DNA of 64,000 nt from Limnoperna fortunei (lineage: Eukaryota > Mollusca > Bivalvia > Mytilida > Modiolidae), in NCBI GenBank assembly GCA_944474755.1, contig OX104116.1:8187547-8251546 (forward strand). The letters run 5' to 3'. Each line of letters starts with the position of its first letter. The stretch's first letter is position 1. The position numbers and the translations under genes are program-made. The notes beneath the pieces are model-generated. The model was not told the DNA's origin and did not search any database. It saw only the letters and a list, made by a program, of their open reading frames with translations. Below are positions 15,262 to 52,000 of the stretch, one piece after another.

Positions 15262-15297
<36 letters not shown>

Positions 15298-27200: not shown

Positions 27201-30200
27201 ACACCAGATTAAACTGTTTTTACACTATACCTGAATCTGAATACTCATCCATTTGGAAGTCCTCGGCTTTTATGAAATAAGGCAAGACATCTTTGTAACT
27301 CCAGCCATCACATCCCTCTTTTTCCCACTCATCGTAGTCATGGCGACTGCCTCTGATGTATACCATATTGTTTAGGTTACTGGTGCCTCCCAAACCCTTA
27401 CCTCTTGGCCAAAACCCTCTCTATATACAAAATATATTTTATGTAGTATTTTTGGCACTTTTCCAAGCAACATGGTTAATGTTTGTCACTTCCTGTGTGT
27501 TTTTAAAGTTATTAAATGATCCCTGATTATGATGAAACTTTCTATAAATTGAAGCAATGTCAAATTTGTACTGGCCTGACCTTCATAGCTGTTTCACAGC
27601 CCACAGTTTGAGCAGTGTTATGGTAAAGCCATTTATTTTTAATTTTCCACAGATGGGAACTTAGTAATTTTTCAGACATTTGCAGAAAACGGTACCTTTT
27701 TTTGGTGTAATCAACTCCTCCTACATTTTTTTACACAGACCTTATACTTTCTTCCAAGAAATTGTAAACCATTCCTTATTTATTAAGGCTCTTGGTTTGG
27801 CAACCTGGCCATTTCAGACTAAATGTGCCTAGATGTTGTATCTGATACATGAGTCAATGCAATTACCATTATTTAACTAAATTGTAATTGTGTATTTCAA
27901 AGTATAAATTTCTTTTCTTTTTTCCAAATGCCATAAGCTAATGTATTTAGCTACTTTTAAATGATTCATACCTTTTCTGTCATACTTTGTGAGGAGTACA
28001 TCATGATTCATACCTGTCTGCCATACTTTGTGAAGAGTACATCATGATTCATACCTTTTCTGCCATACTTTGTGAGGAGTACATCATGATTCATACCTTT
28101 TCTGTCATACTTTGTTAAGAGTACATCATGATTCATACCTTTTCTGTCATACTTTGTAAGGAGTACATCATGATTCATACCTTTTCTGCCATACTTTGTG
28201 AGGAGTACATCATGATTCATACCTTTTCTGCCATACTTTGTTAAGAGTACATCATGATTCATACCTTTTCTGTCATACTTTGTTAAGAGTACATCATGAT
28301 TCATACCTTTTCTGTCATACTTTGTGAATAGTACATCATGATTCATACCTTTTCTGTCATACTTTGTGAGGAGTACATCATGATTCATACCTTTTCTGTC
28401 ATACTTTGTTAAGAGTACATCATGATTCATACCTTTTCTGTCATACTTTGTGAAGAGTACATCATGATTCATACCTTTTCTGTCATACTTTGTGAGGAGT
28501 ACATCATGATTCTTACCTTTTCTGCCATACTTTGTGAAGAGTACTTCTGTGGTTCTGTGTAATATGTCCAGTCATATTCAGATTTGTGCAAATCAAAAGA
28601 TGCTATTGGGATTTCAATTTGTGGAATCCCCAATTCTGAACCCCCAGCTTCCACTAATAATACAGAAACATCTTTGTCTTCTGACAGTCGATTGGCCACC
28701 ACTGACCCTGCTGAACCGGCACCAACTAAAATTAAATTGAAAAAAAATAACTAGGCTTGGCTATAGGAAGATTTTTAATACACAGTATATGAAACATTTT
28801 CTTGATTAAGCATATATCTCACATACCATTTAACAGGAAGTTTTAAAAAAAATATGAAAAAGAAACAGAAACTTCTTTTTTTCATTACAGAAATGACAAA
28901 TAAGAAATTTAAATATAAACGAAAAAACTGGCTCTGACATTAATGTAAGTTTAAATATTTTGTAATACATATATTTAGAGAGATGCTAGTACAAGTACAG
29001 TCTGTAAAAGAAATTCTTCCAGCTGGGTAGTGTCATGAGTGTTGGAAAATTATTACTTTGAATTCATAATTAATTATGGTTTGTGATTATAAGATTCAGA
29101 TTCTCCAAAAGCTCTGAAGAAGACTATGTTGGAACCATGCATCATAAAGACACTCTGTAAGATAAGGAGATCTCTAGTGGATGAGGAGAACTCTGGTGGA
29201 TGAGGAGAGTTCTGGTGGATGAGGAGAGCTCTGATAGATAAGATCTATGGTGGATGAGGAGATCTCTGGTGGATGAGATCTCTTGTGGATAAGGAGATCT
29301 ATTGTGGACGAGGACATCTCTTGTAGATGAGGAGATCTATGGTGGATGAAGAGAGCTCTGGTGAATAAGGAGATCTATGGTGGATGAGATCTCTGGTGGA
29401 TGAGAAGATCTCTTGTTGTAAGGGGTCTCTGGTGGATGAGAAGATCTCTGGTGGATGAAGAAAGCCCTGGTGGATGAGAAGATCTCTGGTGGATGAGGAG
29501 AGCTCTGGTGGATGAGGAGATCTCTGGTGGATGAGATCTCTTGTGGATGAAGAGAGCTTTGGTGAATGAAGAGACCACTGGTGGATGAAGAGACCTCTGG
29601 TGGATGAGATCTCTAGTGGATGAGGAGAGCATTGTTGGATGAGGAGAGCTTTGTTGGATTAAAAGATCTCTTGTGGATGAGAAGAGCTCTGGTAGATGAA
29701 GAAAGCTCTGGTGGATGAGATCTCTGGTGGATGAGAAGAGCTCTGTTAAATGAGAAGAGCTCTGTTGGATGAGATCTCTGGTGGATAAGAAGATCTCTGT
29801 TGGATGAGATCTCTGGTGGATGAAGAGAGCTTTGGTGGATGAAAAGATCTCTGTTGGATGAACAGATCTCTGGTAAATTTATGGTTAGGCCGGATTTTTC
29901 TGCCGTTATAATCCGAAGTTAGTTTTGTGATTTGTCTGATAAATGGCAGAATTCAGTCCTATTGCTTGTAATGTAGCAAATAAAAATTCGAATTTCGGTC
30001 TATTTATACAAAATTCAAACAATATTCATCTCCTTTAGGTTATTGAAGCTTTAGACATTGCGAAACTAACATGAAACGATCTTTATTGAAGATATTTCTT
30101 TTTTCGTCTTTGAAGATGTATGTGGAAAATTCTATGTTGATCAGTTTTCCGTATATTGATAATGTGACCTAATTTTATTATGAACATGCTAATTTGCATA

Positions 30201-30740
30201 CTATAACAACCATTCTGTACTAAGAATGCAGTAATTTACATATGTATTACACAAGATGCAACACACCAATCAGTAAACCGGTAAAAAAAAGCGAGGGTAC
30301 GATTATTCGTTCTAATATGTGGTATGTGACAATTGTCATGTTAATATATATTATTACAAAAATTAATAATAGTATTGGAAATTTGTAAAGGAATTGTGTC
30401 ATAATCATGAATATAAAAAAATAAAACTAAAATATGTTGACTGTCAGTGGAAACATTCTAAGGGTCCTAAAAATACTTCTGCATCTGCAATCATCCATCT
30501 CAAACATGAAAAACAAAAAAGTGAACAATACACAACCTACAGGTATTAGTTTGAAGTATTGAACAATACACAACCTACAGGTATTAGTTTGAAGTATTGC
30601 AAGATGATTAAGTTACCTATAATGTAGTCATATGTAGAGTTGAGCTGTCGATTTAAGTAAATGTCTGTAGGCTTCAAGTAGTAATACCCCAGAAGTGCAG
30701 CAATTATTATCACAGCAACTGGTGTCCAATAATAACCCAT
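13692..30740 (-). CDS. membrane-anchored GMC-family FAD oxidoreductase (choline/glucose dehydrogenase-like), 11 coding exons, 605 aa
   Basis: Joined exons on the minus strand: 30740-30617, 28725-28517, 27420-27231, 24516-24388, 23663-23542, 19910-19743, 19124-18974, 17915-17761, 16957-16783, 15801-15573, 13857-13692. They total 1818 nt and keep one frame throughout. The protein starts with a hydrophobic segment (residues about 8-21, [16 protein letters not shown]) likely to act as signal anchor, then the FAD dinucleotide motif GAGSAG (43-48), GMC signature 1 ([11 protein letters not shown], 118-128), GMC signature 2 ([15 protein letters not shown], 291-305), the [10 protein letters not shown] block with catalytic His529, and SGNTNAP with the second active-site Asn (573/575). 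GMC enzymes oxidise alcohols (choline, sugars, sterol-like substrates) via FAD; the substrate here cannot be told. Length is normal for the family. All splice sites are GT/AG except the exon 7 donor, which reads TT. The intron after exon 2 starts with a repeat array of donors. Confidence 0.9.
15262..15296. repeat. (GCC)n microsatellite, about 11.7 units
   Basis: Pure 35-base CGC/CCG run inside the 146-bp repeat element; it is GC-rich in an otherwise AT-rich window. Confidence 0.95.
15312..15346. repeat. hairpin at element 3' end
   Basis: GTCTCGCCT-cca-GCGAC, loop tttc, then GTCGC-A-GGCGAGAC: a stem with a three-base bulge. The outer stem repeats the element's left end. Confidence 0.8.
15573..15801 (-). 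CDS. GMC gene, coding exon 10 (catalytic His)
   Basis: Residues 475-550 plus two bases: [13 protein letters not shown], then [20 protein letters not shown] and [16 protein letters not shown]. His529 in [10 protein letters not shown] is the family active-site base. The acceptor is attgcag and the donor TTAAG|GTAAGA. Confidence 0.93.
16215..16280. repeat. short degenerate repeat of caggtataca/ggtaatac
   Basis: Four to five copies of about 14 bp, in the GMC intron between exons 9 and 10. Confidence 0.6.
16783..16957 (-). CDS. GMC gene, coding exon 9
   Basis: Residues 417-474 plus one base: [20 protein letters not shown] and [14 protein letters not shown], the conserved LHPxSRGxVxL block of the C-terminal substrate domain. 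The acceptor is tatag and the donor CATG|GTAGGT. Confidence 0.92.
17295..17380 (-). mobile_element. SINE 3'-end fragment (minus orientation)
   Basis: On the minus strand it reads ATATAGCTGAAAAATTGCTG and AAAGTGGTGTTAGATT, ending in a CAAACAAACA tail. It matches the tail of the SINE at 26231-26495 and is inserted between GMC exons 8 and 9. Confidence 0.75.
17761..17915 (-). CDS. GMC gene, coding exon 8
   Basis: Residues 365-416: [30 protein letters not shown] and [17 protein letters not shown] matches the family's LTSNGxEA segment. The acceptor is ttaacag and the donor ACT|GTATGT. Confidence 0.88.
18262..18680. repeat. minisatellite, about 49-50-bp unit, 8 copies
   Basis: The unit reads cattaaaaataccctgtgta, then cagaaaaaatagcacctgac, then caaaataat. 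Copies vary by small substitutions and indels. It sits in the intron between GMC exons 7 and 8. Confidence 0.85.
18974..19124 (-). CDS. GMC gene, coding exon 7 (donor site reads TT)
   Basis: Residues 315-364 plus one base: [17 protein letters not shown], then [12 protein letters not shown] and YLILGK. The frame with exon 8 requires the exon to end GGAAAAG, followed by TTAAGT instead of GTAAGT. Using the adjacent GTTAAG one base earlier would bring a stop codon three codons into exon 8. The acceptor is ttttcag. Confidence 0.82.
19743..19910 (-). CDS. GMC gene, coding exon 6 (GMC signature 2)
   Basis: Residues 259-314: [26 protein letters not shown] and [11 protein letters not shown], matching the PS00624 pattern. 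The acceptor is tttttag and the donor AAA|GTAATA. Confidence 0.92.
20205..21235. mobile_element. bivalve-type interspersed repeat with two roughly 500-bp internal units
   Basis: It begins with a small palindrome AGGCTCC-CA-GGAGCCT followed by gcatggctcacctga. Two internal units share 'tttgcagatcttgatgag' (20315, 20800), 'gcaataactcctacaa' and 'ggtagaggacatttta' (20560, 21090). It ends near 'ggccaagtgatattgcaatt'. I recognise the words as typical of dispersed bivalve repeats; no coding sequence is present. Confidence 0.5.
21650..21877. mobile_element. fragment ending in GAGGTTCGACTGTA (DNA-transposon-like end)
   Basis: It shows repeated variants of 'atcgaaacaaccgag', 'atcgacataaccgagg' and 'ttcgagacaacgagg', ending in gttcgactgta. 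The reverse complement TACAGTCGAACCTC resembles pogo/Tigger-type terminal repeats. No matching left end was found, so it is at best a right-end fragment. Confidence 0.35.
22365..23030. mobile_element. interspersed repeat family R1, copy 1
   Basis: It shares ordered words with 29886-30322: 'gttagttttgtgatttg', 'ggcag...agt.ctatt', 'aatgtagca', 'tatacaaaattca.acaat', 'attcatctc', 'agacattg.aaaact', and a terminal 'gcg.g...acgatt.ttcgttcta'. It is non-coding and lies in the intron between GMC exons 5 and 6. Confidence 0.55.
23542..23663 (-). CDS. GMC gene, coding exon 5
   Basis: Residues 218-258: [20 protein letters not shown] and [22 protein letters not shown] is the conserved block before signature 2. 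The acceptor is aacaag and the donor AAAG|GTGATG. Confidence 0.9.
24388..24516 (-). CDS. GMC gene, coding exon 4
   Basis: Residues 175-217 plus one base: [29 protein letters not shown] and NGKDMI. This is the usual insert region of GMC enzymes. The acceptor is ttgcag and the donor ATAG|GTATTG. Confidence 0.9.
26108..26139. repeat. fold-back palindrome ATCAGAGACATA
   Basis: A perfect 12-base arm (26108-26119) pairs with TATGTCTCTGAT (26128-26139). The same terminal word occurs in the palindrome at 39691-39726, suggesting a tiny fold-back transposon family. Confidence 0.65.
26231..26495 (+). mobile_element. tRNA-derived SINE, complete-looking
   Basis: The head carries a Pol III A box TGGCCGAGTGG (26241-26251) and B box GGTTCGATTCT (26305-26315). 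A body follows with 'ccagttttcctaccgcagg', 'tccggcttcctcccccaata', 'gatatagctgaaaaattgct', and it ends in a CAAACAAACAAAC tail. It lies opposite to the GMC gene in the intron between exons 3 and 4. The intervening bases do not fold as a functional tRNA, so this is a SINE and not a tRNA gene. Confidence 0.85.
27231..27420 (-). CDS. GMC gene, coding exon 3 (GMC signature 1)
   Basis: Residues 112-174 plus one base: [32 protein letters not shown], then [13 protein letters not shown]. The acceptor is atatag and the donor TCAG|GTATAG. Confidence 0.92.
27651..27825. repeat. interspersed repeat family R2, copy 1
   Basis: About 170 bp shared with 58397-58565 in the same orientation: 'gtaatcaactcctc', 'acatttttttacacagacc', 'cttcttcca', 'aaattgtaaaccattcc' and 'ccatttcagact'. 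It lies in the intron between GMC exons 2 and 3. Confidence 0.65.
27961..28550 (-). repeat. 42-bp minisatellite, 14 copies, that repeats the exon 2 / intron junction
   Basis: Read on the minus strand, each unit is GTATGAATCATGATG, then TACTCNTCACAAAG, then TATGACAGAAAAG. The last 27 bases copy the end of GMC exon 2, and the next unit's GTATGA stands where the intron's GTAAGA is. The unit start recurs at + strand 28506, 28464, 28422 and so on every 42 bases down to 27961, with one 41-base step. Every copy therefore carries a consensus-like 5' splice site (AAAAG|GTATGA). In the exon frame the first extra unit is open; the later ones contain TGA. Confidence 0.95.
28517..28725 (-). CDS. GMC gene, coding exon 2 (FAD-binding Rossmann motif)
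   Basis: Residues 42-111: [21 protein letters not shown] (end of the beta-alpha-beta FAD fold), then [11 protein letters not shown] and SSQSMAEK. The acceptor is ttttag. The donor GAAAAG|GTAAGA is the first of a series repeated every 42 bp into the intron. Confidence 0.92.
29160..29880. repeat. imperfect minisatellite of GGTGGATGAGGAGATCTCT
   Basis: About 720 bp of an 18-19-bp unit with many variants (ggtggatgagatctctggt, tggatgaagagagctctgg). It lies in the first GMC intron. The open frame read from it on the minus strand is a repeat artefact. Confidence 0.85.
29886..30322. mobile_element. interspersed repeat family R1, copy 2
   Basis: It starts 'taggccggattt' followed by 'ctgccgttataatccgaagt', and ends 'gcgagggtacgattattcgt'. 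The start and end recur at 57798-58022 and the internal words at 22365-23030. It is non-coding, in the first GMC intron. Confidence 0.6.
30524..30599. repeat. 38-bp direct duplication near GMC exon 1 donor
   Basis: Two identical copies starting gaacaatacacaacctacag, separated from the exon 1 donor at 30616 by about 17 bases. Unlike the other arrays, this one does not include the splice site. Confidence 0.8.
30617..30740 (-). CDS. GMC gene, coding exon 1
   Basis: Residues 1-41 plus one base: [10 protein letters not shown], a hydrophobic stretch, then NSTYDYII leading into the FAD motif. The donor is ATAG|GTAACT. The bases just before ATG read catttcag, a good 3' splice acceptor, so a non-coding first exon probably lies upstream (inference). 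Confidence 0.88.
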
Positions 30741-31330
30741 CTGAAATGTATGTTGGTGTATCTAACTGAAATATATACATAGATACAGAGATTAATCTGA
30801 ATGTCAAGACAATTACAAATCAGGATGTCAACAAACATAGTACATGTACAACACTTAACAAAAACAGAAAGTCAGTACCGGTAATCAGAACCCAATAAAA
30901 GTCCATGGGTTCACTTGAGACGAGTAAGCTGTGCCTATAATTAGACACCAACTATGTTACTCCTTGTCATGTCTAGGAAAAAGGTCAATTTAGTAATAGT
31001 AAAGACTACCTGTAACACAACAAATATACCCCAAATTAGCAATAGAATTTAACATTTTTATATTTATTTATCTATTGTTGGTTTGAATGGGGTTGTCCCT
31101 TTATGCCAGCTATATTTAGCATCAGGTTTTTTATTATAAACATGGTATGAACCCTTGACAAAAAAAGAAGCAATTTTTCATTGCGCACACCTTACACAAA
31201 GTTGGGCTCATACTCCCAACCACTGGTAATGTACAATAATCTCACAGTTGAGCAAAATTGATTGATCGATGTAGAATGTACAAAAAGAAATAAATAAATA
31301 CAGAACAACAGTCAAAGTCTCTCACATTAT

Positions 31331-32252
31331 CAGGGCTCACGCTGGGTCAAAATTATAGGGAGAAGTCACTTCTCTTTTGGGTGGCTGACAGGGAGAAGTG
31401 AGGATAGAACAGGGAGAAGTGGGTGGAAAACAGGGAGAAGTTGCAGTATATGTCGCGAAAGCGTCCTGTTTACTTTGTTTTTTTATTAATTAGTGTTGGC
31501 ATTTGCATTTTTATTATGTTTTTTTAGCAGTTTAATTTATTGAGGATAAAGTATCAAAGATTTGATTAACTATTCAGTATACTTACATGTATATCACACA
31601 TTTTCAAAAATACATGTAATAAACATAACAATAAAAATAGAATCAACTGTCACAAAAAACTGTTCATTAAAATAAATGTTTCTTTGTCATTGATACACAA
31701 TTTTATTGATTTATAATGAAGTACTATTAGAACTAGAAGAAGAAAATTACATCATTGTGACACATAATATATTATTTAAAATTGTAAAATTCACTATTAA
31801 AAAGTATTTAAACATATTTAACTTAAATTTGTTTTAAGTAACAGCCAAAATACTATTTTTACTACGTGTCTATCATTGCAAAACTCATTTCACCACTATC
31901 AGCGTAGTATATTTGCAATCTCCGGCACCAAATTCATATCCGCTCCGAAAATTTTCAAAAATTCTTGTGCTCTGAACTGGTTTTCAGTTATATTGTAAAC
32001 CTACGTTTTATATACCAAATAAAAGTTAAAAGGGTACCAGTTCAACTTTGGCGCGTAAACATAATAAACATGACGCGGTATCAAAAATATGAAGATTTCT
32101 TACCAAAATGGGAATAAAATTTGAAAGGCGACATTAGGCGATTCTACAAAATGAAAGGGCGACTTCACTTCGCTTTTGAAGATGATCGACGGCGAAGTGG
32201 GACCACGATAAGGCGACTTCTTCGCCCGAGTCGCCCTCCAACGCGAGCCCTG
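31331..32252. mobile_element. 922-bp non-autonomous DNA transposon, CAGGGCTC termini, 5-bp TSD
   Basis: The termini are inverted: CAGGGCTCACGCTGG on the left and the complement of CAGGGCTCGCGTTGG on the right. ATTAT flanks both sides (31326-31330 and 32253-32257). The ends carry iterated AGAAG/CGAAG words (gggagaagt on the left, ggcgaagtg and ggcgacttc on the right). There is no transposase ORF. CAGGG ends recall hAT elements, though hAT target duplications are usually 8 bp, so the superfamily is open. Confidence 0.8.
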
Positions 32253-32311
32253 ATTATGGGTTGAGAAAACACCAAACACTATTCTTAAAGAATCACCCCA
32301 AAATATATTTT

Positions 32312-32415
32312 AATTGAATGGTGTTTAAAGCCACTTTCAGCAATGTTTCAGCTACATCATGACATCAGTTTTATTGGGGAGGAGGCTGCAGTGCCTGATG
32401 AGAAACTTCTATCCC
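32312..32415 (-). mobile_element. SINE 3'-end fragment (minus orientation)
   Basis: The minus strand reads CCAATAAAACTGATG, GATGTAGCTGAAACATTGCT and GAAAGTGGCTTTAAACACC: the tail of the window's SINE family, diverged. Confidence 0.65.
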
Positions 32416-34507
32416 AACCCTCCCTCATTCTAAATGGATCACAACCCTAGACCTTACATATATAGTATGTTCATGTATAATAGTATCATCTAAAATTGTC
32501 ATTCATGGTTGAATGGAAATGTGTGTACTTGCACACATGCATGGTTTTGAATTTTAAACCATTTTACAATACATGAAATCCTAAATCTGATGTTAGCCCT
32601 ATAATTTAATAAGATGCACTACCAGACAAAAATAGGAAATAATTCAATTGGATTCAATACCAATCGGTCAAAAATGGGAGATATTTCAATCAGATGTACT
32701 ACAAAACTGTCTAACATGGGAGATAATCCAATCAGATGCACTACCAATTGCAAACTGTCAAAAGGGAGATAATTCAAGAAACTGTAATAGATATTCGTAA
32801 CATATTTAAAATTTACATATACATGGCTCTTATGCTACTGTTTTTATTGAAATATTATTTAAGACTTTAAACATCATTCTTTTAGACTTTAGATGAGCTG
32901 ATATTGAAGGACTATGATCTTTTATTCATCAATATAATATTTTTTAAGTTTAAAATATACATTATGTACATACTGTTGATACTTTCAATATGTTTATTTT
33001 ATATGTTTACAATATTTGTATAACATGTATCTGTATGTTTTTTTGTCTGGTCCCATTTTAAAAACAGTAGGAAAATCTCTGTTGTTAGTACAGTTGTATA
33101 ATTTGACATCATTCCTTCTTTTATTTCAGAATCCTATTATTGCATAACAGTACTTTATTTGGCATAAATCTTTTCTTTTATTCAATAATATAAATGCATG
33201 GAATAAATATTTAAGGTATTGATCCATAATTGAAGTCACAGATTAATTGTATTTTTCGCCCAAAAAATGCAGCTTCATTAAATCAATGTATAGTTAATTA
33301 ATGAAAAAAATTAAATATGTTGTTTATTTTCAGTTAATGTTAACAGTTTTGAGCAAAAATTTAGTTACTCAAATAGTACATGTAGTATACTATTTCTAAT
33401 ATTTGCTGAACATTAGCCAGGTCTGCTCCATTGACATCAAATAGTACATGTAGTATAGTATTTCTAATGTTTGCTGAACATTACCCAGGTCTGCTCCATT
33501 GACATATGGGATACCAAATATGACCACGTGGTCAATTGGCCCAGGTACCTTAATTATTTTTTCCATCAAATAAGATATGAAAATCATTACCTCATTTAAG
33601 TTTGATGTTGAAAGTTTCAGATCTATCATTTTTTTCCTTATGCTTAGATTGAAATTAAATTGATCCTTTAGTATTATGTCAAACAATGTGACACATATTT
33701 TTGACTGGGTTCAAGGAAACTTGACTACTAGGTTATTTAAAGATCCATTTTGTTTAATGTATACACATATGACATTTAACAAAATACAGTATTATTTAAA
33801 TACAGGTAAGGTTATTGTATCTCCCACTGTTGATGTGAAGAAATCAACAGCACTGAACATTCCACTTAAAAAAAACTGTCATTGCTGTACAGAAACCACA
33901 TGAGCTTACACAATAGAAAATGTAATGTAATTCTAGTTTGTCATGATTTTTATATAGCTTTATGGTTGTTGGGGGAGTTTTTTATGTCCTACACCAACAA
34001 CTAATGCTCTTGGTCCGACGGATATGGCTTTATCAGAATGTGACAATCTTCATATCTTTAGAATCTGCATGACCTTAGCTTGGATAATTATAATCATTTC
34101 TTGAAAGACAATATATATGTAGTGTTAAGTAAAATATTTTTTGTAAAAGATGGATTTCTTATCAATTATTGTGTCACTTTTCTCTGTAAAATCTCCTCCT
34201 GTCAAGATTAGTTTTTTTTTCTTTAAACTCATTAATTTTGCAAAAAATCTACATAATTTAAAGCATATTGTTTAAATAATGATTGTTGATATATCACTTA
34301 AAAAACATTATAATTTGTGTAAAGCTGAAAGTTTAGAAAACCCCAGAGTCCAGGTGACAGCCTGCACGAGTGCACTTCTACTCTATAGACTTCAATCTTT
34401 TTCTTCCAAAAATTACAATTTTTGCACTTGATTAACAATACTAATCTTGTACCTAAATGATTACCTTTAATTGATTCATTTGTTTACAGCAAATGTCAGC
34501 GTATAAC
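32416..34507. other. AT-rich intergenic DNA
   Basis: No gene is seen. It contains three loosely similar 'gatgcactaccaa...gggagataattcaa' stretches near 32610-32775 and the 68-bp duplication at 33370-33505. Confidence 0.4.
33370..33505. repeat. 68-bp direct duplication
   Basis: Two tandem copies beginning caaatagtacatgtagtat, with three or four differences between them. Confidence 0.8.
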
Positions 34508-35231
34508 CTCCCAGAACGGTACTTGGACTTGTCGTCCATGCTTTTTTTCGTCCATAGTAAATCTCGTCCACAGTAGACATCGGCCCCGGACATTTCGTCC
34601 ATACCATTTCGTCCATATTATTTATGATTTATTTAGTATGTACAGGAATTAAAATGAAGTTATTTTTTAATAATTCAAAGATGATTTGTTTTTGTGTAGT
34701 AAAATAATGAAAGTAATTGCCGTTTCTGATGATAATAATAAGTTTAATCCCGGAGATTATTAACATATTTTACAAGACATGTTTATATCCTGGGTATATA
34801 TATGGGTCTTTTTATTGATGTATGTAATTGAAAAGGTTATTTCTACCAATTGAATATTGAATATAACAAATAACAAATAAGGCTTTATTATTTTATTTCA
34901 GAAATAAGCAGTAACAAATAATATTATAACAGAGCACTATACACATTAAACTGTAATAACGTCATGCAATCATATATTTAATATATTTATTTTAGACGTG
35001 GTAATTATTTATTATACAACTCTCATACAACTCTCATACACAAACTTTCATTTAAATATTCAATTGAATACATATATTTTAATTGGACCTAATTAAATTT
35101 GTATATGCACTTGCTCACATACATTTATTATTCACGTCTAACTATCAAACATCAATATTTATAATCACATACATGTAAGTTAATCTGAGTCACATTTAGA
35201 AATGTCAATAAATCTTGACTTTAATCGCTGT

Positions 35232-35844
35232 TTAATCGCTGTCTGATTCAGCGTCAGAGTCTGGGAGGTCTTCTACTGATGGTACTGCAGGAGAGTACAG
35301 ATGTCCAACGGCTCTCAGGAAGTCAGAGGTGGACATCTGTTGCTCCTCTAGCTTGTCCCAGTACTCTGTGAGGCGACCATGCAGGGAGCGGTAAGTAGTG
35401 GTCTGGTATCTTGAAAGTTGCTGCTCGCTGACAAGGTTGAGCTGCATGTCGACTGTATCTGCCTCACACTGGAAGGCTGGCACGATGATATAAAACTGGA
35501 CCTGTGTACGTCCACACTTGTCATTAAACAGCTTGTGCCAACCTAAAATAAAATAAAATTTGAAATAAGTAAATAATATTAGTTAAAGAAAAGATTAATT
35601 TAAAATAAGTTATTGAAACATTTTCATAGGAGTGTGCTTTCAATTGGTACGTTTATTAAATAAGAATTAAAAAATACATATATACATTGATGTACAGTCA
35701 ATTCAAACAACAATTTTTTTCTTAAATAATCTTTTGCTTACCAGTATTACAAAGGCGATGTTGCCAGTTATCACAAGTTTCACATTGTAAGGCATGTTGC
35801 ATAGGACGCACAGGCTGATCGCACGAAGAACATAGATACACCAT
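35232..35844 (-). CDS. 137-aa transposon protein: zinc finger fused to MULE-type C-terminal region
   Basis: Exons 35844-35742 and 35542-35232 (103 + 311 nt) splice in frame at AATACTG|GTAAGC and tattttag|GTTGG. Residues 1-34 form a Cys/His finger: CSSCDQPVRPMQHALQCETC then WQHRLC. Residues 36 onward (WHKLFNDKCG, then QLNLVSEQQLSRYQTTTYR and LTEYWDKLEEQQMSTSDFL) look like the segment found downstream of the MULE transposase domain in mollusc transposon proteins, recalled from memory. The acidic end is SVEDLPDSDAESDSD. The catalytic DDE region that should lie between is absent, so it cannot be a transposase. It may be an inert remnant or a DNA-binding competitor. Confidence 0.6.
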
Positions 35845-36264
35845 GGTGACCAAAACATTTGTGAGAAGGGTTTCTCCTTTGCTCCCCTTTTTATTCATTT
35901 TAGTCGGTTCTACAAAGATTACTCAATGTGCTTGGATATTCCTTTATATTTTCTCCAAACTCGTATCTCTATTGAATTTGGCTTGTTCTGTAGCATGGTT
36001 TATCCTTTGATATTTAAAAATGTTGTTTTGGTTAATTGACATCAAAGAGGTTTTTTCTTTGTCTAATTGGTGTGTGGTTTCTTATAATTATTTTTTTTTT
36101 ATCCTTCAATTATTAGTTAATTAATCAATCAAAGATTGACGATGATTTAAAATTCAAATAGTAACATATTAATTAATATTATGATTTTATTTTAGGATTA
36201 ATATCTAATGTTTCATTGGTAATATCATTTATTTCAGTCAACCTTGGTTTTATTATATAACTTT

Positions 36265-36311
36265 AAATATATATATATATATATATATATAGATATATAT
36301 ATATATATTAA
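36265..36311. repeat. (TA)n microsatellite
   Basis: Almost pure TA run, just inside the right terminal repeat of the MULE derivative. Confidence 0.9.
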
Positions 36312-40005: not shown

Positions 40006-40021
40006 ACACTAGATTGAAAGC

Positions 40022-40095
40022 ATGGATGGTACAAGTTTATCAACAGCTCTGAAAAACTTTGCAAGTTTAACTACAGAACCTGAAAACTTTTTAAG
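40022..40095 (+). CDS. MPHOSPH10: MPP10 coding exon 1
   Basis: Residues 1-24 plus two bases: [16 protein letters not shown], then TTEPENFL. The donor is TTAAG|GTTTGA. The frame joins exon 2 exactly (AG + T = Ser). It is separated from exon 2 by a roughly 3-kb intron that holds the 29-bp minisatellite. Confidence 0.88.
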
Positions 40096-43000
40096 GTTTG
40101 ATTCCTATATTGATATTTACACTAAATACTATTTAAATCGATACAAGCAGGAACCTATAAATCAACGGGACTGGAATCTAACGATATTCACTGTATACCA
40201 TGTCATGCACTAGCCTACTGTGATTAGCGTACTATATAGTGTGGTCACGGATACGATTGTATTTTTTTTTTTTTTTTTTGTAATCGGCTATAACATGTCT
40301 GTTAAAACTCTGGGAACTGGTACTATAATTATATATATTGTAGACATATATATATCAATAAATTGATGTACATGTATTATATATGAGGAAACACACAAAA
40401 CGACCCCAAAAAATTGGTTTATATTAATTCAAGTCTTTCCACATGCGCGCCATCTACCGGTAACATGTTCGGTAACTCTAGTTTACATGTAAGACTGTTG
40501 TTGGTATACAAGCCATAACATAAATGTGATACACTATACCTGAAATAAACAATTAATTGCAGACTTTCCAATTAAAAAAAACCGCCCACCTATTGTCCAC
40601 TCTGGTGCGAAAAACTGCGACTGTAGCCACAGTTTGTCATGTTGAAAACTTTTGAAATGGACAATTGATTTTGATAAATTTTCATGCTTCAGGTGAAAGA
40701 CAGGTCAATATCTGAGTATGTTATTAAAAGCCGCTGCAGTGTAAACTTGATCGCAAATTAATCGACTGATGTTTATTCCCCCATTTGCCTGATGCTTATC
40801 TCAGGTAGAACCCAGCTGTTTATTACTTGATTAAACAAGCTTACAAGGGACATCCATGTTCTAATATTCAAACTCGTCTGTTGCCTATGGCTCTAGTAAA
40901 TTCTACTTATGAGGTTAATTATATGAAATTTTAATTGGCATAGATGAACAATAGAATAAACATTCAAAATCTTTATTTCAATATCATAGTCTTTTGGTGA
41001 TGATAGCTGTAGTTTTTTTACCGGAAGTAAAAAGGGGGAAAAATCATGTAAAACTGGAAATTGGTCACTTCTGGCACGTACCTAGGTGAAAACCCCATTC
41101 AATAAAAAGACTTTTGACAAATAGAAGTGTGGATTTAAAAAACTCAAGATACTGCACCTGGCTGTTAGTTAGATAAAGGTGATTTTATTATGGTGTCAAC
41201 AAATATATGTGTACATGACATAAATGTATAATGTGAGCACAGATTTCAATAGGTTGACAGTTATCAGTTACAGATAATTGAGTGATTACATGTACCTACT
41301 AGTATATATAGTCATGAAAATGAGCTTAGAAACGGACTAAAATAATCTTGATTGGAATTAAGGTGATTATTTTCTGGGAGAAAAATATCTAGAGAAGCAA
41401 TTTAAATATACTTGTTGTTGACTCACACAAACATTTTTATTGTCATCGTGAGATTGTGAAATGTGCCCACCCAGACATGTGTCGCAAAATCTGCTGTTTT
41501 GTATATGGAGCGCGCACTCTGATGTCGGGTACCTGACAATTCAGACCATATGTCAAGACAAATTTGGACCGTATGTCAAGACAAATTTGGACCGTATGTC
41601 AAGACTTTTCGGACTGTATGTCAATGAAATTGTTTTTATATTAAAATTGATAAAAGTAAAAAGTAATAATAATATTAAATTTTAAAAAATATTAAAATTA
41701 AAACATTGCATTTTCCTGATCTGCTAATTAGAATCATACAGCTTGGTTTCACAGTACAGTATGCCCTGTATAAGCTTGGAGAGTATTTCGCTCAGATTTG
41801 AAGTAAGCATGTGCTGATTATGTGGCAACCAACACGAACAAAAATTGTAATTTTTTTGAATTATTAAAAAACATGACTTTTATTAAATAATGCTCTAGAC
41901 TCTTACAGTATAGTTTTGAGACCATTGGCTGTTAGAGTACAGGCTAGTGGTCCCCAACTGTTTGAGTGCAGTCTTGAGATCAATGACTGTTCCAGAGAAG
42001 TCTTGAGATCAATGACTGTTCCAGAGAAGTCTTGAGATCAATGACTGTTCCAGAGAAGTCTTGAGATCAATGAATGTTCCAGAGAAGTCTTGAGATCAAT
42101 GACTGTTTCAGAGAAGTCTTGAGATCAATGACTGTTTCAGAGAAGTCTTGAGATCAATGACTGTTCCAGAGAAGTCTTGAGATCAATGACTGTTCCAGAG
42201 AAGTCTTGAGATCAATGACTGTTCCAGAGAAGTCTTGAGATCAATGACTGTTTCAGAGAAGTCTTGAGATCAATGACTGTTCCAGAGAAGTCTTGAGATC
42301 AATGACTGTTCCAGAGAAGTCTTGAGATCAATGACTGTTTCAGAGAAGTCTTGAGATCAATGACTGTTCCAGAGAAGTCTTGAGATCAATGACTGTTCCA
42401 GAGAAGTCTTGATATCAATGACTGTTCCAGAGAAGTCTTGAGATCAATGACTGTTTCAGAGAAGTCTTGAGATCAATGACTGTTTCAGAGAAGTCTTGAG
42501 ATCAATGACTGTTCCAGAGAAGTCTTGAGATCAATGACTGTTCCAGAGAAGTCTTGAGATCAATGACTGTTCCAGAGAAGTCTTGAGATCAATGACTGTT
42601 TCAGAGAAGTCTTGATATCAATGACTGTTCCAGAGAAGTCTTGAGATCAATGACTGTTCCAGAGAAGTCTTGAGATCAATGACTGTTTCAGAGAAGTCTT
42701 GAGATCAATGACTGTTCCAGAGAAGTCTTGAGATCAATGACTGTTCCAGAGAAGTCTTGAGATCAATGACTGTTCCAGAGAAGTCTTGATATCAATGACT
42801 GTTCCAGAGAAGTCTTGAGATCAATGACTGTTCCAGAGAAGTCTTGATATCAATGACTGTTCCAGAGAAGTCTTGAGATGTAACGGATGTTACTTTTAAC
42901 TTGGGAGATGTGCAAGATGTAGAATGTCTTGTGGTTGCCCATTTTGTTGTCTCCCAATATACTAGTATTTATAAATTTACAAATTGTTCAGATTAAATCA

Positions 43001-46000
43001 CCGATATATTTGAATCAACATTCAGGTATAAACATAATATTATTTGTTTCTTTTTGCAGTTTGAATACAAAGAGCCATGACAGATTCAAGACATCTACAA
43101 AACTTATATATGATTTTTGTAAAAATTGTGAGAACAATCGCTTGCAGGATGAGGCTTTACCAGAACTGATAATAAACAATTTTGATGATGAGCAAATCTG
43201 GCAAGAACTGGAATTGCAGAACAACTCATTAGTAGATAAATTGTTAGGAAAGGTTGCTGGACTTGTAACAGTGAAAGAATCGATCTGTTTTCTTAATGGA
43301 AAAAAAGTGACTGCAGAAAAAAGTAAAAAAGGGAGGATTATTGAGCAAAGCAATGGTGATAATAGTGAAGAGGAAAGTGATGAAACTGATGAAGAAATCA
43401 ACAAAATAAAGTCAAGATTACACAAATCTGATGATGAAATAGATGAAAATGATGATGATGTTGACTTTGATTTTGATTCTGTTAATCCTTTACAAGATGA
43501 AAGTGATGAGAAAGATGAAAATGCAGCTGAAATTGATTCAGACATGGACAGTAAAAAGTCTAAAAAGAACAGTGCAAAGAAGAAACCTGTTAAAGGGAGT
43601 ATTGTTGATGATAAATTCTTCAAATTAGCAGAAATGGAAGCGTTTTTGGAGCAGGAAGATGCCAGAGAACTAAGGAGACAAAAACGAGAGAAAGGAGAGG
43701 ATAATGTTGATGAATCAACAGACGAGGAAGACATTGATATGTTTGCAAATTTGTCTTCAGAAGAGGTATTTAAAGTATAAAATGAGATAAGGCTACAAAG
43801 ACCATATTATCTGTAAAAATGTGAGCCAGTAGTTCATGAAAAGAAGGGTAAAACTATATACTTTCAAGCTACCTTTTATGGAATTTATTATATTTGTATA
43901 GAAGATGTTAGTAATATTTAATGTTTTGATACTCCTAGTAGTACTGGTATGAATGACCAATGTTCTTTAAAAATATTAGAAAAAAACTTGTGAAACTTGC
44001 TTTGGAAGTTTTTGATCTCTCAAAGTTTATGACATGTCACGTAATATTTATGAATATATTTCATTGAATTTAAGATGTTGACAATCTACTTATTGTAAGT
44101 AGAATGTATCAACCATACTAATATGTTCTCCATATAATTTTTATTCTGTTGTGTGTATGATTGGATTAATATGATTTTCTTTCTTTCTAGGAGGATGCTA
44201 AATATGATGATTTCTTTGATCCTCCCGATGAAGATGATTCAAAAGAAAAAAAGAAGGTCACATTCAAGGATCGTGAAAGGTTTGTTTATTTTGGGATTGA
44301 GATATTGGTTAATTAAAATGTGTCAATTATCGTTTTACAACGTGCTATTCACAGACTTACGAAGTCCTTGATCTATAATCTTAATTTAGTCTTGAGACAT
44401 TGGTGGCCTAGTTATTAAGGTAGTTGTCTACTTAGTAATATTTATCACATGCCTGTCAACATTGAGGTTGTGGGGTTCGAGCCTACTGAGTGCAGGGTAA
44501 TATTTATCACATGCCTGTCAACATTGAGGTTGTGGGGTTCGAGCCTACTGAGTGCAGGGTAATATTTATCACATGCCTGTCAACATTGAGGTTGTGGGGT
44601 TCGAGCCTACTGAGTGCAGGGTAATATTTATCACATGCCTGTCAACATTGAGGTTGTGGGGTTCGAGCCTACTGAGTGCAGGGTAATATTTATCACATGC
44701 CTGTCAACATTGAGGTTGTGGGGTTCGAGCCTACTGAGTGCAGGGTAATATTTATCACATGCCTGTCAACATTGAGGTTGTGGGGTTCGAGCCTACTGAG
44801 TGCAGGGTAATATTTATCACATGCCTGTCAACATTGAGGTTGTGGGGTTCGAGCCTACTGAGTGCAGGGTAATATTTATCACATGCCTGTCAACATTGAG
44901 GTTGTGGGGTTCGAGCCTACTGAGTGCAGGGTAATATTTATCACATGCCTGTCAACATTGAGGTTGTGGGGTTCGAGCCTACTGAGTGCAGGGTAATATT
45001 TATCACATGCCTGTCAACATTGAGGTTGTGGGGTTCGAGCCTACTGAGTGCAGGGTAATATTTATCACATGCCTGTCAACATTGAGGTTGTGGGGTTCGA
45101 GCCTACTGAGTGCAGGGTAATATTTATCACATGCCTGTCAACATTGAGGTTGAGAGTTCGAGCCTTACTGAGGGTTTGTTCAACTCTAACCTTAATTTAC
45201 AAGAATTGCCAGTTTTCCTATGGAAGGTCAAGGGTTTCTTCAAGGTACTCGGCTTCCTCCCCCAATAAAAACTGGTTACCAGAAGTAGCTGAAAAATTGC
45301 TGACAGTGGCATTAAACACCAAACAAAATATAATTTAGACTGAAAGAGTACTAAAACTGAAAATCCTTAATTACAAACAATGCCCACTGAGTACAAACCT
45401 AAACACAACTTAATTATTTATTGAAAATATGTCTAGGACCAGTACAAAAAAGGATGAAGATGAGTCCAATGACAGCCATGAAAGTGACGAGGAAATTGAT
45501 GACCAATCACAAGGTTTCAAGTCAGGGCTGTTTGATAGCGAGAGTGAAGGTGAAGATGTAGACGACATTTTAGGCAGAAATAAAACTCAAGAGAAATCAA
45601 CATTTGAAAAAAGACAGGAAAAGGTAAAAAAAGACAGGGGAATTTAGAAGAATAAATCACTTATATAAAAGAAATGATAGCAAATGAATCCAGCTCTTGT
45701 TTAATATTGTAGTACCCTATCATATGAGCGTGTCCTTAATGACCACCTGGTTTTGGGAGGCTTGTAGTCCCCTATCATATGAGCGTGTCCTTAATGACCA
45801 CCTCGTTTTGGGAGGCTTGTAGTCCCCTATCATATGAGCGTGTCCTTAATGACCACCTCGTATTGGGAGGCTTGTAGTCCCCTATCATATGAGCGTGTCC
45901 TTAATGACCACCTGGTTTTGGGTACAGAAAAACTCATTTCAGTGTTATATTATCTCTTAACAATGACCACCCCTTAAATGTGACCAGTAACCACAGATTT

Positions 46001-49000
46001 TGTGCAGAATTTGTCTGCTGACAATTTGGTACCGTTGCGAGCATTAAATTCTTGTATGATTCTAAAATTTTAATCTAGATTAATAAAAAGTACGAATCAG
46101 GTTTGGTTACAGAAAAGCTATTGATTGTGAAAATGCATGCTACTCCTAATATTTTTGTGACCAATTCACTGATACTGATTTAACCACATCATGGCTTTCT
46201 AACTGAGCCAATTATAACATAGTAGAGATGTTATGTATATTGTTTCAGAACGTCTGTTATGTAATTAAATGGATTGTGGTGGATAGGGAAATTTTTATCA
46301 ATGAAATGTATTGTGTTTTCTAACAAGTTTAAATAACTCTTTGTCCTAGCTGAAAGAAAAGATAAAGAAAATGGAAGAAACAAGTCTGGAGGAAAAAACC
46401 TGGCAGCTGAAAGGGGAGACAACTGCAACTGCTAGACCAGAGAACAGTTTATTAGAAGAGCATTTAATGTTTGACCATATTGCTAAAATACGTAAGAATA
46501 TATCTTTACCTGGATGTCAATGAATTACAGATAAACAATATACAACTCACAATTAATAAATTAGTAGTTGTTTCAACAATAAAAAACTTTTTTTGCAAAA
46601 AATGTGATTTAGACTTCTTTTTTATTCTCTCACGTAATTTGACTATGACAAATAATGCTGTTGTCAACTGTTGGTTTACAATAAGTTCATCAGGTATTCA
46701 CCTACATTAAACTTCAGGTTTTCATTGGAATCTAGAGTACCAGGTGAGATCACTGACCAGAAAAACTGGCAGTCTAATTAAGGAAGGTTGGAGTCTGTCC
46801 CAGCCTTGACTGACATCAGACATACAGCATTGACATGCCAGAGGTCAACAAATGAGGACAAACTGCTTGGAACACCCCTAAATATTGCTTAAATTTTATC
46901 AGCCGCCTAGTATTTTATCAAAAACAGCATTAACAGTAGATAAAATGTTTGAATTAACCATGCATGATAAAAACATTTTCCAATTTTCAGCCAAGGTAAT
47001 CACAGAAGAAACAACACAAGATTTGGAAAGTTTGATAAGACAGAGAATAAAAGACAAGGTTAGTTAAACGATTGCAGTCTAAAGGGAAAAAATATTGTAG
47101 TTTTGTTGTTCAAAGTCCAGGAATTTCAAACCTAAAAAAAATTACTAGTAAATTTCTCTTCTATTGGGTTGAGATCCAAGCCCACCCCCCCTCTTTTCTA
47201 ACCCACTAACTCCACCTTTTAACCCCCTACAAATTACTATATATTTCTTTTTTTTCGTTAATTTTGGTGAGTTGTTCTTCGGTCTTTTAGTGATTATTAC
47301 TTATTGTAAGGTTTGAGTTTGGTGTATGTCCTCTATGTATGTTAAAATATACACTGAATACTATTGAACAAATAAATGAACTTGTCTTCACCCACCGAAC
47401 CTGGTTTCTTGTACATGCTCAAACCTGGTTTCCTGTAGATTTTCAAACCTGGTTTCCTGTGCATGTTCAAACCTGGTTTCCTGTAGATTTTCAAACCTGG
47501 TTTCCTGTACATGTTCACTTATTTACTGTATATCATATGAAAAACAGCACATATCACTATGCTACCAGTGTATCTACATGTAAACATTTTTTATATCGAT
47601 ACATGTATTTGCTTTTTGTCTATAATTCATTTCTTCTGGACAAAACAACTGCATTGAATAAAATGTTTCTTAAAGGTAAATGAATTTCACATAAAAAAGG
47701 ATGTGAGATTCCTTACTTGTACAATACATGGATCTACTAATATAAGCAAAAGCAACAACAGAAATATTGATTTTATGAAGGGTCAGGGAAACATAAATAA
47801 CCCCTTGCTAATCTACAAGAAAACCCCAATATGCTAGAATCTGTGTAGATTGTTGTCAGTCTAATTGGACAACATGTTAGAACAATTTAGAGTTCATCAT
47901 TAAATGCATATAACATTAGTTGCACATTAATGAGTATATAATGATTGTTTAATATTTGCTGTGTTTGTGAGAAATTATTAAGGTAACCTTTCTTTAAATG
48001 AAGTATATTATCTTATTAATTTGACCTTTGTAGAACTTGACTGATATATTGTTTATTATAGGCATGGGATGATGTAGAGAGAAAGGTTAAGCCTAAAGAA
48101 AATCCATTTGAGTACAAGAAAAGAATAACTCTGGATCAGGAGAAGAGTAAACTCAGTTTGGGCGAGATCTACGAACAGGAATATCTGAAGCAACAACAGG
48201 TAAACAATCTGGGAAACATCTACCAACAGGAATATCTGAAACAACAACAGGTAAACAATCTGGGCAAGATCTACAAACAGTAATATCTGAAACAACAACA
48301 GGTAAACAATCTGGGCAAGATCTACGAACAGGAATATCTGAAACAACAACAGGTAAACAATCTGGGCAAGATCTATGAACAGGAATATCTGAAATAACAA
48401 CAGGTAAACAATCTTGGCAAGATCTACGAACAGAAATATCTTAAACAACAAGAGGTAAAAAATCTGGGCAAGATCTATGAACAGGAATATCTGAAACAAC
48501 AACAGGTAACAATCTGGGCAAGATCTTGGAACAGGAATATCTGAAACAACAACAGGTAAACAATCTGGGCAAGATCTTGGAACAGGAATATCTGAAACAA
48601 CAACAGGTAAACAATCTGGGCAAGATCTTGGAACAGTAATATCTGAAATAACAACAGGTAAATAATCTGGGCAAGATCTACGAACAGGAATATCTGAAAC
48701 AACAACAGGTAAACAATCTGGGCAAATATCTTTTGCAAATTTAGAAAGACCTCATGCCATAGAGATCTATATAGATATAAATGGTAGAATTACCCAGATA
48801 GCATTTATTTTATGTTTTATTTTGTGTGTGTAGTTTAATCATTATGTTTTTCTCTACAGCAAGAAGAAGAAGAGAAGCCTGATGCCGACCACGAAGCAAT
48901 TAAGAAGATGATGACATCCTTATTTGTCAAATTAGATGCTCTTTCAAACTTCCATTACACACCAAAACCAGTAGGTATTGTAAAGAGTTGAGGAGGTCTT

Positions 49001-52000
49001 TTTTTTTTACTTACTGGGACCAGTAGGTATTGTAAAGAGTTGAGGAGGTCTTTTTGTGACTTACTGGGACCAGTAGGTATTGTTAAGAGTTGAGGGGGAG
49101 GTCTTTTTGTGACTTACTGGGATAACTAAATTTTGAATTATTGAATCTGGATATATAGCTTAAATCTGGAATAAAGAAGTTAAATGTATGTAAGAACCTA
49201 TTAGTCTTGCATTTTCTTTCCTTTTTTGTTGTTTAAGTTGTTTAATTTTACAAACAATTACATTACAGGCAGCACCTGAAATAAAGATAGTGTCAAACAT
49301 GCCAAGCATTGCTATGGAAGAAGTAGCTCCAGTAAACGTTAGTGAGAACCAGGTTTTGGCTCCTGAAGAGATCCAGGTAGGTAAAAACGAGAACTAGATT
49401 GTAGATATGGAAGAGATCCAGGTAAGTCATGACAAGAACCAGATACTGGCTTCTGACGATATCCAGAAAAGTAATGTTAAGAAGCAGGTTCTGGACCCTG
49501 AAAAGGTCCAGGTAATTCACGACAAGAACCAGGATGTAGATATAGAACAGCGTCGCTGAGCTTCCAAAATGTTGTATGACAGGTTTTTGCAACTTTTCAG
49601 TACACAAGAAAACTTTCATATAATTAAAATATTTGTAAGATCTAATTAAGTATTTCATTTTCAGGAAGCTAAAATATCTCCAGACTTTGAATATTGTCAA
49701 CTGAAATAATGCATGCTTTCGTGTTTCTAACAAGACTTATTTCCAAATTTTAAAAAATTATTTTGCATTTTTCAATGAATTAATAAAATATCAAAATGTT
49801 GTAAAAGATTAATACAGTCCTGGAGAATTTATATATAAATTACAAAATGTTGTATTTTCCATTAACCATTCACTTAGTTGGTGCTTCAGAATACAAAAGA
49901 TGAAATAATTAAAAATGTTCATCATACAAAATGGTAATTCCTTCTCATTAGGACCAAAACGCATAGAAAAAGGGAAGTTCTATAGTAAAAAGAAGCATAT
50001 CACATCTAATAATTATAATAAGATCTATTCTTAACTTCAAATTTATTATTTTTATTCAAATCTTTGTGTTAACTTCATTTTCCATTTGTTTTCTGTTTAG
50101 TCTATCTTTAAATAAAATGAAGCCATGTAAAAAATAAAAAAAATACTCTTTTTCAAAGCTGTTATCAACATAGTCAAAGTTTTCATAATTTATACAACGA
50201 TTTGGAATAACCAATATGCTACCAATAAATATTGGATATTTTGTCACGTCATTTTGACTGGTTTTCATTGGCGACAGGAATATGATATTTTGCAAGACCC
50301 AAGATATGTTCCCTCCAAACCCAAATAAATGTATAACTCATAACCGCTCAGTTGTAATATACAACATTTTGGAAGCCCAGCGACGACAGGTAAGTCGGGA
50401 CAAGAACCAGGATGTAGATATATGGAACAGAAAAGATGAGAACCAGATTGTAGCTGTGTAAGAGATCCAGGTAAATCATGACAAGAACCAGATACTGGCT
50501 TCTGACAATATCCAGAAAAGTAATGTTAAGAAGCAGATACTGTATTCTGTAGAGGTCCAAGTTTGTCGTGACAAGTGTTTATCTAGTCCTCTCGAGGGCT
50601 GTTTGAGGGCTAAAGATGAGGTCCAAAAAAGGTCATGTCAATTAAAGTATTGATGTGCTTTTCCTAGACTTTTCTTCTTGATTCTCTTTATGCTTATAAT
50701 GTAATCCATGTCAGTTTCTTGTAATTGTTCCAATGTAATTGTTTTTAACAATGACTTCACTGTACATTGCACAGAAAATTAACTTTTTGTAAACGGTGCA
50801 GATATTTTATAGAGCTTGCAAAATACCTAGTGGCATGGAAAGATGTACCTTTTCATTTTATCTAGCTGGAGGGAATACAATTCATTTTTATCTGAAAACG
50901 CTCTATTTCGTGGTAAATCCTTGTGTCATAATGTCACACGGCAGATTTAATAGATATCCCAATAGATTATAAAGGACAAAGTGTTGCTTTATAATTAAAC
51001 TTTACCATAATAAACTCAGAAATCCAGAGTCTTGGAATTAATCTAAGTATGGCTGTGAAATTTCTTAATATATAATTAGGAAAAGGTTAAAGGGGAATTA
51101 AAGGCAAAGACAGAAAAGACTGAGACAGATAGAAAGAGAGAAAGAAGAATAAAGAAAAATACTAAGAAGAAAAATCAGAGAGAAAGAGAAAAACGACAGA
51201 AGCTTGTAGAAAAATTGAATCCTGGACTAGGAAATAAATACAGCAAAGAAAAAGCTGTGAAAGAATTAGAGAAACAGAGCAAAGAAGGAAAGAGTGTAAC
51301 GATGGTCAAGGTTTGTAACTTTTAAACTCCTGACATTTTCTACACATTTTTTCAAATATATCAGTATGCTTATTCTTTTTCTTTTTGCTTAACGAAATGT
51401 TTCCATACCTTCCAGAAATACACTAAACCAAATGAATTTTTTAAAAAGTACACAATTTTATCTTTTATATTAATCCAGCTTCCCTTCCCAGTGAACACTG
51501 GTCGTCATTATATAGCTGAAAACAAAAACAAAACATTTATAAATATTGAAAACTCGAACTATAGTGATCAGTCTGTCCGTCCATCCGTCCGTCCGAACTA
51601 ATCGTGTCCGGACTTTTTGATCTTTTGAGGTAGGCTTTTGATATTCGGAATGTAGGTAGATAATATCAAGGCCATGTGTCGCATACCGTGGTTGATAACC
51701 TTTGACCTTGAACTTTGACCTTAAGGTCACATTATTGCTTTCTGTATGACAAATTCATGTCCGGGCTGTAACTTTTTTATCTTTTGAGATAGGCTTTTGA
51801 TATTTGAAATGTAGGTAGATAATATCAAGGCTATGTGTCGCTACCGTGGTTGATAACCTTTGGCCTTGAACTTTGACCTTAAGTTCACATTATTGCTTTC
51901 TGTATTACAAGTTCATGTCCAGGCTGTAACTTTTTTATCTTTTGAGATAGGCTTTTGATATTTGGAATGTGGGTAGATAATATCAAGGCGATGTGTCGCA

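Follow-up and report, generated by a model that had tools for sequence, protein, structure and literature searches.

Minisatellites across exon–intron boundaries at donor sites in a mussel-like genome, compared with amphioxus mirages

Known tandem repeats that copy splice signals

Tandem repeats lying over exon–intron boundaries and copying the AG/GT signals have been described in amphioxus as 'mirages'. Units of 10–72, 150–160, 157, 60 and 108 bp are given for them, arrays on the acceptor side are included, and RT-PCR and haplotype data accompany them. The eight arrays reported here resemble these mirages in having boundary-spanning units, splice signals within the units and varied unit lengths. 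They differ in that they belong to a mollusc-like genome, lie so far on the donor side only, and are known from DNA alone. A sequence-only reading of the present DNA had proposed a candidate for an undescribed phenomenon; this claim was given up, since the amphioxus mirages are the same kind of structure. The arrays extend this little-known structure to a mussel-like genome, where it recurs in unrelated genes.

The AGGT model (PMC3443670) starts from a tandem genomic duplication in which copies of an exonic AGGT become a new intron. A likeness to this model had also been noted earlier, and it fits loosely. Both involve tandem duplication of a splice-site motif, but in the present case what is copied is the donor of an intron already in place, and formation of a new intron was not seen. 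The array did not create intron 2 of the GMC oxidoreductase gene, the one intron to which this comparison applies, because the intron is present without the array in a paralog and thus predates it. In the polyubiquitin gene UBC (PMC10809524), the repeats are coding and each AGGT site can be used as donor or acceptor. An AGGT splice site likewise stands in each repeat unit here, but beyond the first copy the units lie in the intron, and no stretch rich in pyrimidines precedes their AG. The pyrimidine fraction before the array AG was 0.31 (25 sites, two arrays) versus 0.65 at 20 real acceptors, and AG/GT ratchet splicing was set aside as improbable on this weak acceptor context.

Arrays in the window and their older state

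The window is the whole stretch of DNA analysed (64,000 nt). Arrays were detected with TRF and donors were placed by homology-based gene models, which gave 20 coding introns, 10 in the GMC gene and 10 in MPP10. Minisatellites that repeat the donor open four of these 20 introns, namely GMC oxidoreductase intron 2 and MPP10 introns 6, 7 and 8. TRF and the homology models thereby confirmed the earlier claim of donor-spanning arrays at 4/20 coding introns of two unrelated genes. The features are as follows.

13691..30740, minus strand: GMC oxidoreductase (glucose dehydrogenase-like) gene, 11 coding exons found
27961..28544, minus strand: 42-bp array, 14 copies (TRF 13.9), at the GMC intron 2 donor (exon end 28517)
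28517..28725, minus strand: GMC exon 2, whose final 27 nt are array copy 1
40022..56101, plus strand: MPP10 gene (U3 snoRNP protein), 11 coding exons found
Exon end 40095, plus strand: first MPP10 donor
48062..48199, plus strand: MPP10 exon before intron 6, with its final 45 nt forming the first copy of the 51-bp array
48155..48725, plus strand: 51-bp array, 11 donors, at the MPP10 intron 6 donor (exon end 48199; TRF 11.1 copies, 48159–48725)
48967..49122, plus strand: 50-bp array, three copies (TRF 3.0), at the MPP10 intron 7 donor (exon end 48970)
49344..49545, plus strand: left, diverged part of the 45-bp array, at the MPP10 intron 8 donor (exon end 49376; TRF 2.9 copies, 49344–49474)
49551..50385, no strand assigned: 835-bp element splitting the 45-bp array in MPP10 intron 8
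50390..50575, plus strand: right part of the 45-bp array, MPP10 intron 8

Each unit joins exon and intron sequence: 27 exon and 15 intron nt in the 42-bp GMC unit, 45 and 6 in MPP10 intron 6, and 33 and 12 in MPP10 intron 8. The 50-bp unit of MPP10 intron 7 has 4 exon nt (ACCA) and 46 intron nt; its donor CCA/GTAGGT is present three times, with a first spacing of 52 nt. Every unit type contains a splice signal, the donor being repeated in all eight arrays (four in the window and four in dynein genes), and in MPP10 intron 8 some copies have lost it. The 835-bp element has 27-nt terminal inverted repeats (96% complementary) and ACAG at both flanks. Another gene of the window lies at 35.2–35.6 kb.

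A GMC paralog 145 kb distant has its donor at the same position and is array-free. The alignment of 118 homologous MPP10 proteins showed a gap at the intron 7 junction in none of them. Insertions were present at the intron 6 junction in 7/118 proteins, those displayed being unlike the repeat, and at the intron 8 junction in 77/118, where none of the 10 listed of the 77 was repeat-like. In the MPP10 proteins of other animals (alignment of 20), the repeat is missing at all three junctions. The array-free GMC paralog and the repeat-free MPP10 homologs show that an exon end present once came first, and that the arrays grew from the exon into the intron. On the same evidence, an origin of the arrays as former coding repeats, one of the options raised earlier, was ruled out. 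From copy 2 onward the arrays contain stops and length changes, and third-position bias is absent. A dispersed-repeat origin of the units was rejected as well, as a blastn search of the window with four stretches of units returned only weak matches at other places (best E 0.049).

Recurrence in other genes and the reading frame

Dynein heavy-chain genes of the same assembly, picked without regard to repeats, contained four donor-spanning arrays among at least 94 exon matches; 122 of 148 candidates were scored, and the match end is not always the exact exon end. The tandem duplication of exon–intron junctions proposed as a general pattern thus recurs outside the window. In the GMC paralogs, 0/60 solved donors lay in arrays, all of them placed by homology and some by low-scoring splice solutions, one below zero. 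This set covers 16 of 30 PF00732 matches outside the window; the junctions solved number 60 outside the window and 17 inside it. These donors show that the rate of 4/20 is not typical.

The donor-spanning units measure 42, 51, 45 and 50 bp in the window and 156, 59, 52 and 25 bp in the dynein genes. The earlier statement that three of three units (42, 51 and 45 bp) were multiples of three had omitted the 50-bp array, which also carries exon sequence; with it the window gives 3/4 (P = 0.11). Among all window arrays, with the 45-bp one entered twice, the period is divisible by 3 in 10/28. Beyond the window, one of the four dynein units is a multiple of three. With 4/8 units overall and 1/4 outside the window, the rule fails and was ruled out. 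Had it held, selection acting on the additional donors would have followed from it.

Under such selection, in-frame units would be kept since splicing occasionally goes to a later donor and the protein thereby gains repeats. The 42-, 51-, 45- and 156-bp units would suit this explanation, as would the in-frame, stop-free read-through to donor 2 in GMC intron 2 (donor 2 at 42), MPP10 intron 6 (donor 2 at 51, stop at 81) and the 156-bp dynein array. However, the 50-, 59-, 52- and 25-bp units are not multiples of three, and a stop or frameshift occurs before or at donor 2 in the remaining 5/8 arrays. Coding constraint is absent from the later copies, and the repeat was seen in no homologous MPP10 protein. 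We regard selected alternative donors, an option of the sequence-only reading, as very improbable with read-through confined to 3/8 arrays. The homologous proteins suggest that regular splicing is undisturbed by the arrays.

Donors, acceptors and random placement

In none of the three sets (window, GMC paralogs and dynein) did an array span an acceptor; the number expected there is small. The donor to acceptor ratio was 8:0 (two-sided sign test, P = 0.008; P = 0.125 without the window), a ratio based on few cases, with 4/8 coming from the window in which the feature was first noticed. Random placement of arrays in the two gene spans covered at least four donors with a probability of 0.0007–0.02, or of 0.017–0.049 with another merging of arrays, the value varying with how much exon overlap was permitted; these values apply to a window that was itself picked for its unusual look. 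The dynein donor excess gave P = 0.10–0.24, in a test where the ends of 6/94 matches had been adjusted by eye after the sequence was read. Summed over the three sets, approximately 3.9–5.3 donor-spanning arrays were expected and 8 observed, and approximately 3.8–5.4 acceptor-spanning arrays were expected and 0 observed. Donor counts exceed random placement only slightly, and it is the 8:0 asymmetry that most deserves further attention.

Plain chance, by which some arrays of a minisatellite-rich genome land on donors and neither donors nor acceptors are special, is unlikely. It would accommodate the donor counts, including the absence of arrays from the GMC paralog donors, and arrays occupy 22% of the two gene spans (7438/33130 bp); the empty acceptors and the sign test speak against it. 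We consider a mutational or functional pull at donors, such as rows of U1 sites helping the intron or donors being fragile, quite doubtful. Such a pull would agree with the random-placement values of the window and with the near-invariant donor copies in the GMC array (variable columns 1/9 versus 9/33). But in MPP10 intron 6 the donor copies are not more constant (3/9 versus 9/42, from 10 of 11 copies), the GMC paralogs have no donor in an array, and the dynein excess is not significant.

The arrays are probably exon–intron boundary minisatellites of the amphioxus-mirage kind, arising by slippage-type duplications that are tolerated at donors and purged at acceptors. An event such as slippage or unequal exchange would make a tandem duplication of a short segment crossing the donor, and further copies would then accumulate within the intron. 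Splicing would continue to use the exon-most donor, so that protein and gene structure are kept, and the array would drift as intron sequence. Tolerance at donors may reflect that the first donor is still functional, and stronger purging at acceptors may reflect that splicing is more easily shifted when an acceptor is copied. We infer the use of the first donor, the mutational mechanism and why donors and acceptors differ; chance placement combined with removal of arrays at acceptors would come near to this account. Boundary arrays of this kind would offer a route to longer introns without loss of gene function.

A wider reading is held tentatively, with somewhat more doubt than confidence: boundary minisatellites would be common and ongoing here (roughly 2–5% of introns) and restricted to donors, the asymmetry being a genome-wide footprint of spliceosome choice. 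The exon-most of many near-equal donors would win, and copied donors would therefore be harmless, unlike copied acceptors. In MPP10 introns 6, 7 and 8, the later donors are about equal to the first in predicted U1 pairing, so strength alone would not explain a win of the first donor, a point against the explanation favoured above. Introns with 2 to 20 near-equal consecutive donors are natural tests of 5′ splice site choice by the spliceosome.

Several arrays near junctions were left out of the counts, as none of them runs across the junction. A 38-bp array starts 17 nt inside GMC intron 1, and others lie 11–58 nt from a junction. The dynein genes have two 46-bp arrays within introns, one approximately 50 nt inside (L041) and the other just past the junction. 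They also have two arrays that precede acceptors, one of 38 bp (L040) and one of 26 bp, the latter ending approximately 13 nt short of the acceptor.

Donor-Spanning Arrays in the Window

The assembly holding the window (C6:8187547–8251546) is 1.335 Gb, and Mytilus is the nearest among the named protein matches of the window's genes. This points to a relative of the mussels, though probably one other than Mytilus. Two genes bear on the arrays:

40022–56101, + strand, MPP10 gene, 11 coding exons found
30740–13691, − strand, GMC oxidoreductase gene, 11 coding exons found

MPP10 showed 85% identity to M. trossulus over model residues 330–590 and 72% across the aligned model, and the GMC oxidoreductase showed 72% identity to Mytilus. 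The exon counts confirmed the 20 coding introns of the sequence-only reading. Four of them begin inside arrays whose unit spans the donor, as that reading had claimed.

Donor-spanning arrays in the window, with the composition of the unit
GMC intron 2: 42-bp unit, 14 copies; 27 exon and 15 intron nt
MPP10 intron 6: 51-bp unit, 11 donors; 45 exon and 6 intron nt
MPP10 intron 7: 50-bp unit, 3 copies, first spacing 52 nt; 4 exon and 46 intron nt
MPP10 intron 8: 45-bp unit, diverged; 33 exon and 12 intron nt

The 50-bp array had been left out of the earlier modulo-3 count as lacking exon sequence. This was incorrect: ACCA/GTAGGT occurs three times, with four exon bases within. The MPP10 intron 8 array is interrupted at 49551–50385 by an 835-bp element whose terminal inverted repeats are 27 nt long, and resumes at 50390–50575. 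The element sits at a donor copy and has ACAG on either side. A 38-bp duplication (30522–30599, 2.1 copies, 100%) begins 17 nt into GMC intron 1, near the donor, and does not cross the junction. The GMC exon 7/8 junction (18975–17915, minus strand) had no in-frame closure with a GT donor: exon 7 ends GGAAAA/GTTAAG, exon 8 is one base short, and homologs read GKGYLTS. The misfit may come from an altered donor, from the loss of a base or from an error in the assembly.

Age and Use of the Copies

One of the two readings first proposed was that the arrays are former coding repeats that turned intronic. The comparison of MPP10 junctions showed that 118 of the 120 listed matches spanned each of the three junctions. 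Gaps were absent at the intron 7 junction (0/118). The intron 6 junction had an insertion in 7 of 118 proteins (six of 1 residue, one of 6) and a short deletion in 4, and none of these indels resembled the 17-residue repeat. An insertion was present in 77/118 at the intron 8 junction and a deletion in two; the 10 insertions inspected were of 1–2 residues, a few codons past the junction. In 20 aligned proteins, ranging from molluscs to coelacanth, the three exon ends were single-copy.

At the GMC exon 2/3 junction, 20 of 122 alignments had a gap within 12 residues, mostly 1–2-residue shifts among the 12 inspected. The homologs P0127 and P0236 had longer inserts there, which look like unspliced intron. 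In P0126, a predicted M. galloprovincialis protein, the exon-end peptide is directly duplicated over a short stretch (ERSMREKSMREK), a possible mark of boundary repeats at this site in Mytilus or else of a poor gene prediction. The GMC paralog about 145 kb away (contig C6:8.07 Mb, four exons found within the 20 kb examined) has its donor at the identical position and no array. A coding-repeat origin fails against the homologs without the repeat and this array-free paralog, which indicate that the GMC intron predates the array and that the copying went from exon to intron. Changes absent from the exon copy are common to the intron copies, a pattern that suggests amplification of a single early copy.

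We see no sign that later copies are used or constrained, and the proteins suggest that the first donor is the one used. Later copies contain stops and length changes, and an in-frame, stop-free path to donor 2 was present within the window only in GMC intron 2 and MPP10 intron 6. Variable columns at codon positions 1/2/3 of copies after the first numbered 2/3/1 of 9 each in the exon-derived part of GMC, and 4/1/5 of 15 each in MPP10 intron 6 (10 of 11 copies parsed). The donor 9-mer was steadier than the rest of the unit in GMC (1/9 columns variable vs. 9/33), but not in MPP10 intron 6 (3/9 vs. 9/42). Predicted U1 pairing was weaker in later GMC copies (−5.7 vs. −9.5 kcal/mol in the first). 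The commonest later copy equaled the first in MPP10 introns 6 and 7, and copy 2 was about equal to the first in intron 8 (−11.6 vs. −11.3 kcal/mol). Strength alone therefore does not explain why the first donor would win in MPP10.

Recurrence and Donor–Acceptor Asymmetry

GMC paralogs and dynein heavy chains of the same assembly were sampled. The GMC sample covered 200 kb, with 16 of the 30 matches to the family that lie beyond the window. Counting the window, splice solutions were obtained for 77 of 81 exon pairs, and 60 of these lie outside it. Arrays contained 0/60 of these donors and 0/60 acceptors. The dynein sample (94 PF12774 exon matches, 89 kb) had 4 donors within arrays, each in a different gene:

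C8:8691753 (intron start), 59 bp × 4, 100% identical
C13:53688873 (array start), 52 bp × 20
C11:2638955 (first intron start), 156 bp × 4, near-whole exon plus intron start
C3:62273881, 25 bp × 2

The 156-bp array (stretches L029, 4639–5100, and L043; C11:2638837 on) holds four near-identical copies of almost the whole exon, donor included. An open frame runs through the copies, which makes a coding extension conceivable at this array. In one dynein gene, L040 2972–3142 (C8:8685172) and 4421–4549 (C8:8686621) match the same part of the AAA_6 domain and are possibly duplicated alternative exons.

Arrays thus included 8/174 donors over the three sets (20 from 22 window exons, 60 and 94), or 4/154 without the window, and no acceptor in any set. 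The arrays were compared with random placement, allowing an exon overlap of ≤60 or ≤120 nt.

Expected (≤60 nt; ≤120 nt) and observed arrays
Window: donors 0.91; 1.39, observed 4; acceptors 0.93; 1.44, observed 0
GMC paralogs: donors 1.12; 1.47, observed 0; acceptors 1.11; 1.46, observed 0
Dynein: donors 1.85; 2.48, observed 4; acceptors 1.80; 2.48, observed 0

Donor P values for the window were 0.017 and 0.049 (another version of the test gave 0.0007 to 0.02), and those for dynein were 0.10 and 0.24; the GMC paralogs had fewer donor arrays than expected. For zero acceptors in all sets, the product of per-set probabilities was 0.018 and 0.003. The 8:0 ratio of donors to acceptors gave 0.008 in a two-sided sign test, and 4:0 without the window gave 0.125. 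The donor excess is therefore slight and the lack of acceptor-spanning arrays is the clearer signal, both from small numbers.

The supposed multiple-of-three rule, from which selection of in-frame units had been considered, did not hold. Units of 42, 51, 45 and 156 bp are divisible by 3 and those of 50, 59, 52 and 25 bp are not (4/8, P(4 or more) = 0.26; 1/4 outside the window). Across the whole window, 10/28 array periods are divisible by 3.

Proposed Mechanism and Known Systems

The arrays probably arise when a slip or unequal exchange duplicates a stretch across a donor. With the exon-most donor kept in use, the remainder would be intron, free to grow, contract and accept insertions such as the intron 8 element. 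A copied acceptor would carry greater risk, because the first usable AG past the branch point tends to be chosen. This mechanism predicts donor-side rather than acceptor-side arrays and no frame rule, and both match the observations.

Donor-spanning arrays are real and recurrent. A 2013 paper (PMC3902484) describes 60- and 108-bp repeats across splice sites in amphioxus PGBD5 and cites Adh and troponin C. The tandem-duplication route to intron gain is related yet different, as are dual-specific splice sites. No mollusc report of such arrays was found among the open-licence papers searched. The phenomenon, first considered a candidate for an undescribed one, is known in kind and, as far as the searches reach, new for molluscs. 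The donor–acceptor asymmetry is the part that merits attention genome-wide.

Elsewhere in the window, 35232–35582 (minus strand) is a 3′-terminal exon of another gene, ending SDAESDSD; neither a Pfam match nor a significant PDB match was found for it. On the + strand, 1313–6919 has long open frames that read as endonuclease-like and reverse-transcriptase-like stretches and look like a putative non-LTR retrotransposon.
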